This document shows positions 2,556 through 40,404 of a DNA stretch of 64,000 nucleotides, one piece after another. Source of the DNA: Chloroflexota bacterium (GTDB lineage: Bacteria; Chloroflexota; Dormibacteria; Dormibacterales; Dormibacteraceae); NCBI GenBank assembly GCA_005880915.1, contig VBIW01000047.1, forward strand, positions 1 through 64,000, in the 5' to 3' direction. The notes under the pieces are model-generated. The model did not search any database. It had not been told where the DNA came from and saw nothing but the letters and a program-made list of their open reading frames with translations. Within the stretch, counting starts at the first letter, position 1. Each line of letters begins with the position of its first letter. Both the position numbers and the translations under genes were made by a program.

Positions 2556-5489
2556 ATGGCAAAGTCAACTTCGAGCGAGGTCGCGGGCTACGCGATCACA
2601 AGGCGCGAACCGCTGGACCGGCTCGAAGGCAATTACCTCGAGCTCGAGCACCATCGCACGGGCGCGCGCCACATCCACATCGAGACTTCCGACGACAACA
2701 ACGGTTTTGCGGTCTTCTTTCCCACTCCGCCGAGTGATTCGACCGGCGTCGCGCACATCCTCGAGCACGTCGTCCTCGCCGGCTCCCAGCGCTTCCCGGT
2801 CCGCGACCCGTTCTTCAGCATGACCCGCCGCTCGCTCGCCACCTTTATGAACGCGCTGACCGGTCTCGACTGGACCATGTACCTCTTCAGCACGCGCAAC
2901 GCAAAGGATTTCACCAACCTCCTCGAGGTCTACCTCGACGCTGTCTTCTTCCCGCTCTTGAGCGAAGACGCGTTCCAGCAGGAGGGAATCCGCTACGAGT
3001 TCGAGAATCCCGCCGATCCAACGAGCGGCCTCCGCTACAAGGGCGTCGTCTTCAACGAGATGAAGGGCGCTCTCGCCACGCCGAGCACCGCGATCGACCG
3101 CGCCATAGGCAAGACGCTGTTTCCAGGCTTGCCCTACGCGCATGTTTCCGGTGGCGATCCGCAGGACATCCCCAACCTCACATGGGAGAAGCTCCGCAAT
3201 TTCCACGCCCGCTACTACCACCCGAGCAACGCGCGCTTCTACACATACGGCGACCAAAACCTGGAACGAACACTGCAAGCAATTGAGACCAACGCCCTCG
3301 AGCGCTTCCAGCGCATCGCAATCGATTCCTCGATCTCCAGCGTGAAGCGCATGACCAGACCGACTCAAGCGGTTGAGCCCTACCCGGCCACGTCCGGCGA
3401 CGACAACACGAAAATGGCGCAGGCGCTCACCGCGTGGGTGACCATCCCCACCGCCGACTCGTTTCGCTTGCTCGCGATGAACATCCTCTCCGAGGTCCTG
3501 CTCGGCAACGCCGGCTCGCCTCTGCGCAAAGCGCTGATCGACTCAGGTTTGGGCAGCGCGCTCGCCGACGGCAGTGGGCTGAGAGACGACTACAAGGAGT
3601 CGGTGTTCGGCGCCGGGCTCAAGGGCATCAAGAACGACGACGCTGAGAAAGTCCAGCAAGTCGTCCTCGACACGCTGCAGCGTCTGGCGGACGCGGGCGT
3701 CGACGCCTCGCAGGTCGACGCGGCGATTCACCACCTCGAGTTCGAAAAGCGCGAGCGCTCCAACGCCGGCTTCCCCTACGCGCTGAGATTGCTCTTCACG
3801 AGCATGCCCGGCTACCTCTACGGCGGCGATCCCTTCAGCGCTCTCAATTTCGACAAAGACCTCGAGCACCTCCAGCAGGCGCGTCAGGAGGGCCGATTCT
3901 TCGAAAACCTGATCCAGGCCGAGCTTCTCGACAACCCGCACCGCGCGCTCCTCACGGTGGTGCCAGACCCAGAGCTCGAGGAGCGGCAGCGCCAGACTGA
4001 GCTGAAGCGACTCGCAGAAATCGAAGCCGGACTCACCGGGGAAGAGCGTGATCGCATCGTCCGCCAAGCCCTCCGCCTGAAGGCGGATCAGGAAGCCAAG
4101 CCTGACCTGTCGGTGCTTCCCACACTCGACTTGAGCGACATCCCGATGAAGTTCGAGGACGTGCCGAGCCGCGACGAAAAGGTTCGCACGGCAAGGGTCG
4201 AGTTCTATCCGCAGCCCACGAACGGGATCACCTACCTCGACCTCCGCAGCGATTTTTCGGTACTGACCGCGGAGCAGCAAGACCTCTTGCCGCTATTCAG
4301 CCGCGTCCTGACCCAGAGCGGCGCGGCCGGTCAGGACTATGTGCGAATTGCCGCGCGCATCGCCTCGAACACAGGCGGACTCGGCGCCGCGCCGCAGGTC
4401 CAGTCCCTGGCCGCGAGCGCGGACTACCTGCAGTCATTCGTGCTGTCGGGTCGCGCGCTCGACCGCAACGCGCAGCCATTCATCGATCTTCTGACCGACC
4501 TCGTCGCGCGTCTGGACATTGACCCGAAACGCCTGAAGGAGATCATCGCGGAGATCAGCACGCGACTCGAAAGCTCGCTTGCCGGTCTCGGCTTCCAGTT
4601 CGCGCTGTTGAGAGCGCATTCGAAGCTCAGCTCGGAAGGCGCGCTCAACGACCGCCTACAGGGTATCGGCATGCTGCACACCATGCGCCGCCTGGCGCGC
4701 TTGGAAGATGCTGAGCTGAGCGACGTGGTAGCGGACCTGAACGAGATAAGAAACCGCCTGTTCAAGAGCGACCTGCTCAAGATCATCGTCACGTGCGAAG
4801 AGACGATGATCCCCCAGCTCGAAGAGCTCCTGACAGGTCTCGTGGCGTCACTGAACGAAGACGGCGGCAACGCTGAGCCCGTCAAGCCGCCGCCGCTCGA
4901 GCCGGCGCCCGAAGCCCGCACCGCCCCCGTACCGGTCGCATTCAACGTCCGCGTCTTCAAAACGGTGCGTTACACGCACCCGGACTCGCCCGCTCTCCTG
5001 GTGCTCGCCAACTACATTCGCGACACGTTTCTTCACCGCGAGCTGAGAGAAAAGGGCGGCGCGTACGGCGGTTACGCGCAGGCAGGGGTGGCCAGCGCGA
5101 CGTTTTATTTCGGCTCGTATCGAGACCCAAACATCATCCGCACCTACGACGTCTTCGACCAGGCGGTTCGATGGGTGACCGACCAGGAGATCGACGCGGA
5201 ACCGCTGAAAGAGGCGATCCTCGGCGCGTGCGGCGACGTCGACCCGCTGGAGTCGCCTGACATCAAGGGACGGCGCGATGCGACCAACAAGGCCACGGGC
5301 TTCACGCGCGAAGCGCGCGAACGCTTCAAGCAGCGATTGCTCCAGGTCACTGCGGAAGACCTGCGGAAGGTGACGCGCGCGTATCTCACGGCCACGCCCG
5401 CAGTGCAGACGACGGTGGCGGGAGCGGACCTCATCGCCGCCGCGCGCAAGGAGAAGCCGGAGCTGTTCAAGGTGGTCGCGCCCGTTTAA
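2556..5489 (+). CDS. M16C presequence-protease-like zinc metallopeptidase
   Basis: A 977-residue homologue of the PreP/Cym1 group, which degrades short unstructured peptides inside a closed two-half chamber. The inverted zinc motif HxxEH is visible as HILEH (His67, Glu70, His71). The next block (FFSMTRRSLATFMNALTG) and the distal half with REKGGAYGGYAQ, the substrate-chamber Arg/Tyr region, are present, as is the long helical linker typical of M16C-associated domains around residues 450-550. The chosen ATG begins MAKSTSSEV. The reading frame stays open for 91 more codons upstream, but that stretch is antisense to the PPOX gene and has no family similarity. Confidence 0.9.
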   Translation: MAKSTSSEVAGYAITRREPLDRLEGNYLELEHHRTGARHIHIETSDDNNGFAVFFPTPPSDSTGVAHILEHVVLAGSQRFPVRDPFFSMTRRSLATFMNALTGLDWTMYLFSTRNAKDFTNLLEVYLDAVFFPLLSEDAFQQEGIRYEFENPADPTSGLRYKGVVFNEMKGALATPSTAIDRAIGKTLFPGLPYAHVSGGDPQDIPNLTWEKLRNFHARYYHPSNARFYTYGDQNLERTLQAIETNALERFQRIAIDSSISSVKRMTRPTQAVEPYPATSGDDNTKMAQALTAWVTIPTADSFRLLAMNILSEVLLGNAGSPLRKALIDSGLGSALADGSGLRDDYKESVFGAGLKGIKNDDAEKVQQVVLDTLQRLADAGVDASQVDAAIHHLEFEKRERSNAGFPYALRLLFTSMPGYLYGGDPFSALNFDKDLEHLQQARQEGRFFENLIQAELLDNPHRALLTVVPDPELEERQRQTELKRLAEIEAGLTGEERDRIVRQALRLKADQEAKPDLSVLPTLDLSDIPMKFEDVPSRDEKVRTARVEFYPQPTNGITYLDLRSDFSVLTAEQQDLLPLFSRVLTQSGAAGQDYVRIAARIASNTGGLGAAPQVQSLAASADYLQSFVLSGRALDRNAQPFIDLLTDLVARLDIDPKRLKEIIAEISTRLESSLAGLGFQFALLRAHSKLSSEGALNDRLQGIGMLHTMRRLARLEDAELSDVVADLNEIRNRLFKSDLLKIIVTCEETMIPQLEELLTGLVASLNEDGGNAEPVKPPPLEPAPEARTAPVPVAFNVRVFKTVRYTHPDSPALLVLANYIRDTFLHRELREKGGAYGGYAQAGVASATFYFGSYRDPNIIRTYDVFDQAVRWVTDQEIDAEPLKEAILGACGDVDPLESPDIKGRRDATNKATGFTREARERFKQRLLQVTAEDLRKVTRAYLTATPAVQTTVAGADLIAAARKEKPELFKVVAPV

Positions 5490-35646: not shown

Positions 35647-38600
35647 ATGGTGCCGCGTCGCGCATCCAACCCACGGGTCGCCCTCCTGCGCCCAGGCTTT
35701 TTGGCCGCTACAGGCCTCCTGCTGGCGATGGCGACTTTCGCGTTCCAGGCTCCCGCGGTGGCGTCCGCGGCTGGTCGAGCCTGCGCCACCGCCGGTAACG
35801 ACGGCCCGAACGCAGCGCTGACCGGAGTCGTCAACTCCTATTACCCCGCCACCGCCAGCGCGGCGTCCGGAGCGACGGCCATCTCGGTGGGCGCTCGGAT
35901 TCCGTCGGCTTCACCGCCAATCGCGCCCGGAGATCTTCTCCTGGTCATCCAGATGCAGGACGCCGACATCTCGGGGACCAACGCGATCACATACGGTGAC
36001 GGCGCCAGCGGCCGAGGCACCACCAGCCTTCGCTCGACCGGGTTGTACGAGTACGTGGCCGCGACAAGCGCGGTCGTCGCCGGCGCCGTAAACATCGCAG
36101 GGACCGGGGCCGGCGGCGGCCTGGTCAACAGTTACGACTTCTCCACGGCGGTCACAGCGACCAACGGCTTTCGGACATTCCAGGTGATTCGTGTTCCGCA
36201 GTACTCGAGCGCGACGGTCGTCGCCGGTCTGACGGCGGCAGCATGGGATGGCACCGTGCATGCGGGCGGAATCCTCGCCCTCGACGTCGCGGGCGCGCTC
36301 AACCTGAACAGCCAGACGATCGGCGTCGATCAGCTCGGATTCAAAGGCGGCCTTGGCGTGATCCAGGCTGGTCCGCTCAACGGGGACACGGGTACTGACT
36401 ACGTCGTGGCCAGCCAGCGTGGGCATCACGGTTACAAAGGCGAGGGCATCGCCGGCACTCCCCATTTCCTCTACGACGCAATCGCCAACGCCGCAGTCAG
36501 CGGCGCGGCGGACGGCTACCCGAGCGGTGATGCGGCCCGGGGAGCTCCAGGCAATGCCGGCGGGGGCGGCACCGACGCAGACCCCGCGATCAACGATCAG
36601 AACAGCGGCGGCGGCGGCGGCTCGAACGGCGGCCAGGGCGGCACGGGCGGCAACTCCTGGGCCAGCAACCAGCCGGTCGGTGGCCTCGGTGGTGCCGCCG
36701 TGCCGGCGACGGCGGCCAGGGTCGTCCTCGGCGGTGGCGGCGGGGCTGGGTCTCGCAACAACTCGACCGGCTTTGCGTCCTCGGGCGGCACCGGCGGCGG
36801 GATCGTCATGATCCGGACGGGCTCGCTGACGGGAACCGGCACCATCACGGCCAACGGTGGGGTTGGAGTCACGCCGGCCAACGACGGCGGCGGCGGCGGC
36901 GGGGCCGGCGGCAGCGTAGTCGTCACCACCAACGCAGGCACGGTCAACGGCCTGACCATTCAGGCCAACGGCGGCAACGGCACCGACGCCTGGCCGGCCG
37001 GCCCCGCGGGCCTCCCGAACCGCCACGGTCCCGGAGGCGGCGGCGCGGGCGGCGTGATTGTCACCTCCAACGCGTTGCCGCCGGCCCAGACGAGCGTTGC
37101 CGGTGGTGCGCATGGCACCACCACGAATGGCCCAGATCCGTACGGTTCCACGAGTGGGGCTCTCGGACTTGTCGTCACGACGACGGTGGGGGCGATCCCT
37201 GGGTCGTCGTCCGGCGCCGAGTGCGTTCCTGCGGTGGCCGTCTCCAAATCGACCAGCACGCCCAATGTGACCAACACGCCGCTTGGAACGGTGGCGACCT
37301 ATACGATCACGGTGAGCAACGCGCCCGGCACGTCGCCGGCGTCCGGCGTGAGCGTCTCGGACGCGTTGCCCGCCGGGTTCAGCTACGCAACCACGGTAAG
37401 CGTCGTTCTCAGCGGTGGCGCAACCCGCCCTTCCACCGTCAACCCGGCCCCCGGGGCCACGAACCCGACGTTCGGCACCTTCACCATCCCAGGCGGCGGC
37501 TCGGTTGCGATCACCTTTACGGTCAACATTGCCTCGAGCGTTCCTCCGGGCACATATAACAACCCGGCCACCGCGACGTTTCTGGATGCGGTCCGCACCT
37601 CGCCCGCGGGAACCACATCGAGCAACTACCCAGGCGGTGGGCTCGATCGGGTGACGGTCGGCCTCCCCGATCTGACAATCACCAAGAGCCACACAGATCC
37701 GTTCGTGCGAGGGTCCACCACCTCCACCTACACGCTGGTCGTGAGCAACTCGGGCGGCGCAGCGACCATCGGGGTGGTCACGGTGACGGACACGTTGCCG
37801 GCCGGGCTGACGCCCACCGGCGCGGCAGGAACCGGGTGGACCTGCCCGCCACCTGTCGGTCAAACCGTGTCGTGCACACGGGCCGACGCGCTTGCTGGCG
37901 GCTCCTCGTATCCGCCCATCACGGTGACGGTGACCGTCCTGGCAAGCGCGCCAAGCGCTGTCACCAACCAGGCGGTTGTCAGCGGCGGCGGCGAAACCAA
38001 TACCGCCAACGACACCGCAAACGATCCCACCAACATCGTCACCCTGCCCGGCCTGCCGAACACCTCAGGACCTCTGATCCTGGCTCATGCATCCGGACCT
38101 CTCAGGCCGGACTCGACCCCCGACATGTGGCCGGCGGTTTTGGGCGGAATCGCCGGCGTTGCAGGTCTGGGCATCGTGTTGCGTGACTCTCGCCAGGCGC
38201 CGGCTCGGTTCCGGCGCAGGCGCCGTCGATCCGGCAGCCGCCGGCTTCCTTTGATTCTGTGCGCTGTCGTTGGCGCCCTCGGCGTCCTCCCATCGATCGC
38301 GTTTCCCGCGACCACCCCGGTATCGCCCTCGTCCGCACCTGCTGTCGCGGAGGCGCCTGCCGGCACCGAGCTGATTGGGACCAAGATCGTGACCGAATCG
38401 AAGCCTGCCACCCCGCCGGCTGAAGAGACCTTCCATCCCGCCGGCGGACCGATCACGCCCGCGCGACTGCGGATTCCATCGATTGGTGTTGACGCCCCGG
38501 TCGCCAGTGTCGGTCTGCTCCGTGACGGCTCCATGGATGTCCCCGACAACCTGTGGAAGTCGGGGTGGTTGTCGAGCAGCGCGCGCCCGGGCCAGGCTGG

Positions 38601-38886
38601 GTCGTCGGTCATCGCCGGCCACAGAGGAGTCGGCACCCCGGCCCTCTTCAGCCACCTCGAAGATTTGCGAGCGGGCGACAGGATCCACGTCGTCGATGCC
38701 GGCGGGGGTGAGCTCGTCTATGAGGTAACAGGCGTGACCGTGCTCGACCTGAGCGTCGCATCGCAGGTCAAGGTGTTTGGGAACACGTCGCAGCAGCAGC
38801 TCGTGTTGATCACCTGCTTCGGCCGGTACTCGAGCGCCACGCGGACGTACGACCGCCGGCTGGCGGTCTTCAGCCGCCTGATCTAG
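35647..38886 (+). CDS. secreted DUF11 surface protein fused to a class F-like sortase
   Basis: One uninterrupted frame of 1079 residues. After a signal peptide (LLRPGFLAATGLLLAMATF, ending near AVASAAG) comes a beta-rich domain, then a Gly-rich region (about 290-470, GGGG and GNGG runs). Two DUF11 repeats follow (AVSKSTSTPNVTNTPLGTV; DLTITKSHTDPFVRGSTTST), then LPNTSG at 803-808, a hydrophobic span near 827-845 and a very basic stretch (RFRRRRRR), together a cell-wall sorting signal. The chain then has a second span (LPLILCAVVGALGVL) and a sortase domain from about 925: RLRIPSIGVDAPV, catalytic His992 in AGHRG, Cys1057 in LITCFG, and Arg in TRTYDRR. Class F assignment rests on the pattern RIPSIGVDAPV/GSSVIAGH. 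Substrate and enzyme are normally separate genes. Confidence 0.85.
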   Translation: MVPRRASNPRVALLRPGFLAATGLLLAMATFAFQAPAVASAAGRACATAGNDGPNAALTGVVNSYYPATASAASGATAISVGARIPSASPPIAPGDLLLVIQMQDADISGTNAITYGDGASGRGTTSLRSTGLYEYVAATSAVVAGAVNIAGTGAGGGLVNSYDFSTAVTATNGFRTFQVIRVPQYSSATVVAGLTAAAWDGTVHAGGILALDVAGALNLNSQTIGVDQLGFKGGLGVIQAGPLNGDTGTDYVVASQRGHHGYKGEGIAGTPHFLYDAIANAAVSGAADGYPSGDAARGAPGNAGGGGTDADPAINDQNSGGGGGSNGGQGGTGGNSWASNQPVGGLGGAAVPATAARVVLGGGGGAGSRNNSTGFASSGGTGGGIVMIRTGSLTGTGTITANGGVGVTPANDGGGGGGAGGSVVVTTNAGTVNGLTIQANGGNGTDAWPAGPAGLPNRHGPGGGGAGGVIVTSNALPPAQTSVAGGAHGTTTNGPDPYGSTSGALGLVVTTTVGAIPGSSSGAECVPAVAVSKSTSTPNVTNTPLGTVATYTITVSNAPGTSPASGVSVSDALPAGFSYATTVSVVLSGGATRPSTVNPAPGATNPTFGTFTIPGGGSVAITFTVNIASSVPPGTYNNPATATFLDAVRTSPAGTTSSNYPGGGLDRVTVGLPDLTITKSHTDPFVRGSTTSTYTLVVSNSGGAATIGVVTVTDTLPAGLTPTGAAGTGWTCPPPVGQTVSCTRADALAGGSSYPPITVTVTVLASAPSAVTNQAVVSGGGETNTANDTANDPTNIVTLPGLPNTSGPLILAHASGPLRPDSTPDMWPAVLGGIAGVAGLGIVLRDSRQAPARFRRRRRRSGSRRLPLILCAVVGALGVLPSIAFPATTPVSPSSAPAVAEAPAGTELIGTKIVTESKPATPPAEETFHPAGGPITPARLRIPSIGVDAPVASVGLLRDGSMDVPDNLWKSGWLSSSARPGQAGSSVIAGHRGVGTPALFSHLEDLRAGDRIHVVDAGGGELVYEVTGVTVLDLSVASQVKVFGNTSQQQLVLITCFGRYSSATRTYDRRLAVFSRLI

Positions 38887-40283
38887 AAGGCGGGAATTTC
38901 GAGTACCCCGCCCGATCGATCATCCAGTCCGGGTAGCCGGCCCACGTAGGAGACCCAGATCCTCGAGTGGTCGGAGGACGTGGCGATCCCATTGAGCCTG
39001 GCGCCGCCGAACGCCCTGCCACGCGCTCGCACGTGGCGTACGTCCACGACGGAGCCGTCCTGGCGCATGCGTACCACGGTTCCGTTGCCGCGGTTGCAGA
39101 CGTAGAAGTCCGAGTTCTCTTCCAGCGTCGTGTTGCTCGCCCAGTTTGGATCTTCAGTTTCGATGTTCACAGGTGCGAGATCGACCGGCTGATCCAGCGC
39201 CGAGGATCGGATCGTTCGGCTGCTCGTCGGCATGAAGACCTGGCTGCCGGACGTCCCGCCTGTCTCGAGCCCTAACGCAAGTATCGAGTTGTCGAAGGGC
39301 TGGCTCACATAAAGGACGATTGCCCCGGCGTAGTTGACGAGCGCGCCCAGGCGGGGAGTGGTCAGCACCGCGGGATCGCCGTCTTCGAGGTCGCTCCACG
39401 AACTTCCGACTAGAGGCTGAACGGTTCCACCCGGAGCGAGCCCATCGAGTCCTTTGCCCGTGTGCTCTTGAACCACGCTGCCGTCGGCGACGATGACGCA
39501 AAAGACGGCGCGGCCGCTGCCATCTGGGGAGTGCCCAAGAAACGCAGTCCCGACCGCCCCTTTGGTGAGGGCGCCTGGGATGACTTGAGCTGGCCTCCGG
39601 CCAGTCAGGTCGCCGAAATACACACCGCCGGTGATAGCGTTCGGTGCTCCCTTGAGGGGCCGGCCGTCCGGGTCGTCGATGGTCGAGCTGCCCGGGCCAT
39701 CAAGCCCATACGGCGCGTTGGCCGGCCACAACCGGCCAAAAGCGTTATTGATCGAAATTCCGAGGGGGTTTGTAACACCGGTCTGGGCCGCCGTGACAGC
39801 GGCCGGGTTGTAGAAACCGTTGCGCCACGCCGGGCTTTGCGCGCTGTACATCTGGACCGCGCCACCTTGCGTGCTGGCCTGATCGCCTGCGCCGGCAAAT
39901 GTGGGCGGCACTTCAAGGATCGAGCCGCCTCGCGGGTCGACCGAAAGGAAAGAACCCTCCAGCTGGTCCTGGTTCGCTTTAGGAGCCCCGAAGTTGGACG
40001 TGCTTCCGACCACCAACCTCGCCGCATCGAGCACGCGGCCGGGTTGGGTGAACGCGGCCAGGGTAGGGTTGTCGTGGATCGGCCCTCCGCGCAGGAAGGT
40101 CCCGATCGCCGCAATCGCGGACGCGCCTGGAATGCCGACCACCACCACCCGGCCATCAATGGCCAGCGCGCTCCCGGTGTCCTGTCCATAAAGCACTTTG
40201 GGGTCGAACAGGGTGGCGACTCCCGCTGCGCCTGCCGCCGAGGCCAGCAAACCGAGCGCACGCCGTCGAGTGATCTTGATCAT
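38883..40283 (-). CDS. Tat-exported protein, probable beta-propeller, function unknown
   Basis: A 466-residue protein whose start MIKITRRRALGLLASAAGAAG is a Tat signal peptide (twin Arg, hydrophobic core). A GTG at 40301 would add six residues. The mature part has repeated segments with short Gly/Asp turns and isolated motifs such as ITGGVYFGDLTGRRP, GTAFLGHSPDGSGRAVFCVI and DFYVCNRGNGTVVRMRQDG, similar to NHL or YVTN propellers, ending SGGVLEIPAF. No catalytic residues recognised. It converges on the sortase-fusion gene with four bases of overlap and might be co-localised with it at the envelope. Confidence 0.6.
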   Translation of the reverse strand: MIKITRRRALGLLASAAGAAGVATLFDPKVLYGQDTGSALAIDGRVVVVGIPGASAIAAIGTFLRGGPIHDNPTLAAFTQPGRVLDAARLVVGSTSNFGAPKANQDQLEGSFLSVDPRGGSILEVPPTFAGAGDQASTQGGAVQMYSAQSPAWRNGFYNPAAVTAAQTGVTNPLGISINNAFGRLWPANAPYGLDGPGSSTIDDPDGRPLKGAPNAITGGVYFGDLTGRRPAQVIPGALTKGAVGTAFLGHSPDGSGRAVFCVIVADGSVVQEHTGKGLDGLAPGGTVQPLVGSSWSDLEDGDPAVLTTPRLGALVNYAGAIVLYVSQPFDNSILALGLETGGTSGSQVFMPTSSRTIRSSALDQPVDLAPVNIETEDPNWASNTTLEENSDFYVCNRGNGTVVRMRQDGSVVDVRHVRARGRAFGGARLNGIATSSDHSRIWVSYVGRLPGLDDRSGGVLEIPAF

Positions 40284-40404
40284 GATCCGAAGAGGGTACA
40301 CAACGGAGGGGGGTGAGGCCTTCTGCAGTGAAGGATGAGGCCGTGTCTACATGTGCTGTGTTAAGCGCCTAGCGGTCCGAGCCGTCGGACATTAATCTCG
40401 GAAG

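Follow-up and report, generated by a model that had tools for sequence, protein, structure and literature searches.

The locus at 35647-38886 on the forward strand of the window, meaning the whole stretch of 64,000 nucleotides analysed here, raises the question of whether a sortase and its substrate are made as one protein and, if so, what the enzyme does with a sorting motif carried in its own chain. To our knowledge, sortases have been described as acting on separate substrates. The search for comparable fused chains covered the window's class, samples of its phylum and the matches listed in one species-genome scan.

Architecture of the window protein

The host is a soil bacterium known from assemblies alone, and its class probably belongs to Chloroflexota. 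Its locus is a single open frame of 1079 amino acids, in which the following features were placed:

35647..38886, forward strand: whole fused gene (P0001), with full-length relatives L007 and L008
35695..35775, forward strand: signal peptide, residues ~17-43, read by eye from the sequence as a hydrophobic run followed by AVASAAG
35773..37101, forward strand: AgmC-like Gly-rich N-terminal region, residues 43-485 (NCBIfam NF047640)
37243..38022, forward strand: two DUF11 repeats, residues ~533-650 (approximate limits) and 675-792 (PF01345 and TIGR01451, two stretches each)
38053..38070, forward strand: LPNTSG sorting-motif candidate, residues 803-808 (LPNTS in 4 of 4 f1 relatives of the AgmC type)
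38128..38181, forward strand: first hydrophobic span, a stop-transfer candidate, residues 828-845 (equivalent in L007, L008, L013 and L070)
38206..38244, forward strand: Arg-rich loop RFRRRRRRSGSRR, residues 854-866 (Arg-rich also in L007, L008 and L013)
38245..38304, forward strand: second hydrophobic span, residues 867-886 (hydropathy)
38467..38880, forward strand: class-F-like sortase domain, residues 941-1078 (PF04203, NF033748 and, by sequence, solved sortases)
38620-38622, 38815-38817 and 38857-38859, forward strand: catalytic His992, Cys1057 and Arg1071 (alignment A1)

A preliminary description of this DNA had read the frame as a sortase substrate and a sortase in one polypeptide, with two spans that could place both the motif and the enzyme outside. 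The single 1079-residue frame indeed holds two DUF11 repeats, LPNTSG and an intact sortase domain, and charge and hydropathy agree with the suggested placement. More specifically, both spans were predicted with a simple hydropathy window, and because the positive charges sit between them, the Arg loop is predicted to lie inside and the two ends, carrying LPNTS and the enzyme, outside. The window protein probably joins a surface protein to a dedicated class-F-like sortase in one membrane-hairpin polypeptide.

The N-terminal region matches the AgmC model NF047640 with E 1e-35 and 123.5 bits, under its cut-off of 275, and has relatives in other phyla among the matches listed in the species-genome scan. 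Pfam finds DUF11 in two stretches (68.3 bits), the best of which is 675-792.

The sortase domain scores 83.3 bits against Pfam Sortase PF04203, above the cut-off of 26.6, and His992, Cys1057 and Arg1071 are invariant in the six rows of alignment A1. The full sortase domain claimed earlier, with His992, Cys1057 and an arginine, was correctly positioned, and the conserved arginine is Arg1071. Class F (NF033748) is the best-scoring NCBIfam sortase class at 110 bits, under a cut-off of 166 that is passed in just 2 of 201 genomes of the phylum. Two AlphaFold2 models on four-row alignments reached pLDDT values of 38.7 and 48.8, the latter for the sortase domain; the best 33 PDB matches of this poor model are all sortases. 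Both models are too poor to support a docking argument for the motif in the cleft. The window's assembly holds five further sortase matches. A 3.1 kb contig of this assembly (G000:C148), possibly contamination, carries two tandem sortases (L005 and L006), one with Asn replacing the Thr before the catalytic Cys.

The junction in related genomes

The matches listed in the species-genome scan include Dormibacterota relatives, two full-length (L007 and L008) and one C-terminal (L013). The preliminary description had proposed looking for the same architecture in related genomes, and in these three it is present, with LPNTS, span, Arg-rich loop, span and sortase all in one frame. The same in-frame junction was found in the separate assemblies of L007, L008, L013 and L070, of which L007 and L008 stem from one sampling project and L013 from another. 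Over the span-loop-span region, pN was 0.43-0.51 and pS 0.66-0.68, with dN at 0.63-0.84 and dS at 1.60-1.83; dN was smaller than dS in three of three comparisons, and the junction is therefore most likely translated.

Between the motif and the sortase domain, no stop codon was found in the AgmC-type relatives L007, L008, L013, L070, L137, L138 and L200. An internal start giving a separate sortase was rejected, as the in-frame starts between the spans share no position in four relatives; L008 has no in-frame start codon there. Ten of the 110 class genomes encode the AgmC-like N-terminal part. Wherever the C-terminus of such a homologue is assembled, it is fused (4/4: G000, G079, G276 and G103). 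Five of the other six genomes have frames that run open off the contig end, and in G275 the match stops at the contig end; the fused C-terminal half lies on another contig in four of these six (G242, G244, G250 and G275) and was not found in G017 and G199. With no stop in seven relatives and all four homologues with an assembled C-terminus fused, the claim of one polypeptide has survived.

A conserved operon was rejected, since the window's neighbour genes are not shared: none of eight was found in the flanks, some of them short, of L007, L008, L013, L158, L159, L120 and L122. The end of the fused gene overlaps by 4 bases with a convergent gene at 38883-40301 on the reverse strand, which has a twin-Arg-like start. 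No relative was found in viral contigs.

The LPNTS motif as a sorting signal

The motif, first span and Arg-rich tail had been described as a complete cell-wall sorting signal. The order holds, with the motif at 803-808, the hydrophobic span at 828-845 and basic residues at 854-866. The completeness does not: 19 residues separate the motif from the first span, the window protein has no match at E <= 1 to Gram_pos_anchor or the NCBIfam anchor models, and the Thr is followed by Ser, a residue shared by all four close relatives (LPNTSG, LPNTSG, LPNTSA and LPNTST), so that the site is LPNTS and fails as an LPXTG pentapeptide. The anchor model is insensitive here, because even the clear sorting-signal end of a two-gene partner in the same genome scores just 9.7 bits against a cut-off of 20.

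Within an otherwise variable linker, LPNTS is the best conserved piece. Across the four relatives, 7 of 9 motif columns are invariant; of the 18 columns that follow and lead to the span, just one is (one-sided Fisher p = 3e-4, on columns picked after the motif alignment had been read). LPxT alone is not diagnostic, because LPHT recurs inside the LPHTRT passenger described below and LPxT-like linkers occur in stand-alone sortases.

In f3 genomes (L161-L173), a conserved stand-alone sortase carries LP[NG]T[NSGK] in its linker, some 15 residues ahead of the catalytic domain, at 11 of 13 loci; in L171, LPSTDG lies further upstream, and L170 has no such segment. This linker is possibly a lid or a self-cut site. 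Five sortases (L160, L176, L177, L192 and L195) have a lipoprotein-like N-terminal signal (e.g. LTAC, LAAC, LAGC) and may be held by a lipid in place of a span. L193 (frame 2998-3894) has an Ig-like domain, Big-type by eye, before the sortase in one frame.

Fused loci and motif families in the class

Profile A1, which represents the C-terminal part, matched 52 of the 110 class genomes at 1e-10. Reading the sequences gave 18 fused loci in 17 of the 110 genomes, a count that leaves out L079, whose upstream frame reads like a non-coding translation. In part of the locus readings the domain was placed by whole-protein E-value, which misplaced it in L085, L086, L124, L132 and L158. Eight fused loci have stops at both ends (the window's, L007, L008, L158, L159, L121, L122 and L123), nine are truncated at a contig end (L013, L120 and L137-L142 N-terminally, L125 C-terminally), and L200 is fused with a cut N-terminus and a frameshift inside the domain.

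These loci carry two passenger families, one of the AgmC/DUF11 type and one without a Pfam match that is marked by the conserved peptide LPHTRT. In family f1 the site reads LPNTS four times and, in the second passenger family, LPNTG four times, hence LPNT[SG] in 8/8. In family f3 it reads LP[GA]PPNGGM four times and VPGPP[DAG]AGRG six times; P[GA]PPx[GA]G is present there in 10/10 and LPxT in 0/10. The change between f1 and f3 runs in parallel in two unrelated fused proteins, with LPNTS versus PPNGG in one and LPNTG versus PPDAG and alike in the other.

The loss of Leu and Thr of LPxT at the f3 site could be decay. Separate substrates next to sortases of a neighbouring lineage, however, carry GPPSGG (L160, which also has LPATLPPT at its end) and GPPSAGG (L176) just before the span, and these two pairs suggest that PPx[GA]G functions as a motif rather than being a product of decay. 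In 16 chosen genomes (11 of f3, 5 of f1), the DNA pattern for PGPP[ND][GA]G was found at 12 places versus 13 for the reversed control, and is therefore not enriched in these genomes as such. Seven of the 12 places coincide with the site in the fused genes; next to the other five, no sortase was seen. Furthermore, the span between motif and sortase is absent in 6/6 f3 LPHTRT loci and in L121, so the hairpin is not essential.

Gene pairs and the history of joining

Separate substrate-sortase pairs and other fusions occur in the same class and phylum. Among 61 sortase loci with flanks (L004 and L120-L179), 20 have a putative upstream partner, 14 are fused and 27 are neither; partners were called by an automatic rule that asks for an upstream frame to close with a span and basic residues directly ahead of the sortase. 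The 27 include L132, a frameshifted gene pair that mimics a fusion. The two-gene form, substrate and then sortase, occurs once in the window's own genome: at L004, an ice-binding-like protein (PF11999) ends in LPATLG, a span and RRRRRRNA, its stop codon ends at 1229, and the frame of a separate sortase gene opens at 1237. At L126, an LPNTG protein of the LPHTRT kind, assigned by eye, is followed by a separate, overlapping sortase gene, so the same passenger seems to occur in both the fused and the split state.

A quick tree of 87 sortase domains from chosen loci (149 columns), with the domains placed by domain score, is unrooted and has many open forks; it leaves out 6 partial matches from L002, L124, L125 and L183, L003 gave none, and L079 is labelled fused in it. 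One group (SH-aLRT 92) unites the AgmC-type fusions of f1 and f3, and three of four f1 LPHTRT fusions form another (99) that lies among gene pairs. The f3 LPHTRT fusions are a third group (99), which falls with the AgmC type and the L160/L176 lineage in a set that is not resolved further (88, open). Together with the different passengers, these groups point to at least two joinings in the class, although in an unrooted tree a single old fusion with later splits is the alternative. Gene fusion of an adjacent substrate-sortase pair is the likely origin.

Fusions elsewhere in the phylum

Among 201 phylum genomes, several sortases are part of long frames. Profile A4, which represents L082-L084 and covers the motif, had matches in 38 of 301 genomes at 1e-20; 32 listed places in 18 genomes reach the motif, and one place per genome was read. 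[LI]PxTGF stands just before a fused C-terminal sortase in 18/18 (16 LPxTGF and 2 IPVTGF, with x variable), a count favoured by the motif-bearing profile, of which three of the 18 (L205-L207) are themselves rows. By hydropathy, no span-like stretch of 19 residues was found in the linker between [LI]PxTGF and sortase in the 18 loci. The frames measure 2234-3856 aa in 15 of the 18 and 689-875 in three.

These loci (L205-L219 and L221-L223) are repeat proteins, mostly longer than 2000 aa, with up to five A4 matches per genome. The repeats of L082 and L084 are SdrD_B, CarboxypepD_reg and DUF11; L074 has similar repeats and LPNTGD twice, and L073 a DUF4012 region with LPLTAG. Five sortases (L160, L176, L177, L192 and L195) have a lipoprotein-like N-terminal signal (e.g. 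LTAC, LAAC, LAGC) and may be held by a lipid in place of a span. L193 (frame 2998-3894) has an Ig-like domain, Big-type by eye, before the sortase in one frame.

Proposed mechanism and alternatives

Overall, we consider it reasonably probable that the enzyme cleaves LPNT|S, whether in its own chain or in a sister chain, and anchors the N-terminal half. The signal peptide would export the N-terminal half. The first span would then stop transfer and leave the Arg loop inside, and the second would re-insert, as charge and hydropathy suggest. Cys1057 could attack the LPNT|S site in the same or a sister chain to give an acyl-enzyme, from which an amine, most likely that of a cell-wall precursor, would take up the N-terminal half (~43-806). 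The two-span membrane sortase that remains could act again. Comparison suggests that an adjacent substrate-sortase pair, like those that this genome and its relatives retain, was joined to give the fusion. Self-cutting has been seen in SrtA-LPETG fusions built in the laboratory, at 20 to 40% in the course of cell-free synthesis (PMC2901362).

The best-surviving alternative, unlikely in our view, is a fusion without self-processing, in which the N-terminal half displays or tethers a sortase that acts on other proteins and LPNTS is a relic of two genes. The Ser at P1' and the f3 relatives' loss of L and T speak for it, and with five other sortase matches in the assembly the motif need not be read by the fused enzyme. 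Nevertheless, a relic would sit poorly with LPNTS as the most conserved piece of a variable linker, with the non-random f3 site (P[GA]PPx[GA]G in 10/10) and with [LI]PxTGF in 18/18 distant fusions, even though the profile that finds these includes the motif.

Class C sortases have N-terminal lids, and the motif could likewise be a pseudo-substrate that occupies the active site and keeps the sortase inactive until needed. Stand-alone sortases (L161-L169, L172, L173, L228-L231, L233 and L234) and span-less fusions (L121, L205-L219 and L221-L223) do have LPxT-like segments ~15-40 residues ahead of the catalytic domain. In the window protein, however, the motif is set apart from the catalytic domain by two spans and ~130 residues, and the arrangement of motif, span and Arg matches a sorting signal, which makes such a lid clearly improbable.

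Very improbable is a self-polymerising subunit, a pilin and a pilus sortase in one gene, in which a DUF11 Lys of a neighbour would resolve the acyl-enzyme into a chain. The isopeptide-forming fimbrial domain model TIGR04226 reaches 28.9 bits at 533-629, just below its cut-off of 30, only four Lys are present in the N-terminal half, two at the starts of the DUF11 repeats, and SpaA/SdrD_B repeats occur in distant fusions; against this, both DUF11 Lys occupy positions that might suit an internal isopeptide bond. We regard it as quite unlikely that the gene encodes a natural covalent assembly machine, in which chains would cut themselves or neighbours, halves would be joined via DUF11 Lys or to the wall, and motif and enzyme would co-evolve (LPNT[SG], PPx[GA]G).

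That two genes were joined through sequencing error or annotation is next to negligible: the assembly is metagenome-like with 8.59% contamination, and frameshifts produce the pseudo-fusion of L132 and interrupt the domain of L200, but an assembly fault is rejected because separate assemblies (L007, L008, L013 and L070) have the same in-frame junction, the junction evolves as coding DNA with dN < dS, and 4/4 homologues with an assembled C-terminus are fused.

Relation to known systems

The reading that we prefer, a surface protein with its own sortase, draws on familiar elements in a different arrangement. The window protein shares the His/Cys/Arg sortase domain (PF04203) with class F sortases (NF033748), which score best; these are small separate enzymes, whereas here the sortase forms the C-terminus of a surface protein and follows two spans. 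It resembles an LPXTG-type sorting signal in having a motif, a hydrophobic span and an Arg-rich stretch after an exported repeat protein, but its chain continues beyond the Arg stretch, P1' is Ser and no anchor model matches. Adjacent pairs of the class (L004, L128, L134, L150 and others) have the same elements in the same order, often in gapless frames, yet consist of two genes and carry another passenger (ice-binding-like PF11999 in L004). The [LI]PxTGF repeat proteins also join motif and sortase in one chain, but lack a span between motif and enzyme, and the three included in the tree form a separate group. In the engineered self-cleaving BISOP fusions the enzyme likewise cuts the motif of its own construct (PMC2901362); these are man-made, with the sortase N-terminal, the motif after it and no membrane hairpin.

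A natural substrate-sortase fusion was not found among the papers listed in searches of the open-access literature, which weakly supports its absence from print. If the proposed mechanism is true, this conserved one-to-one fusion would be a self-anchoring surface protein and a natural counterpart to engineered self-cleaving tags. With motif and enzyme encoded together, the specificity of the enzyme would be readable from sequence, and the LPNT[SG] and PPx[GA]G families would offer a chance to test how sorting motifs change.
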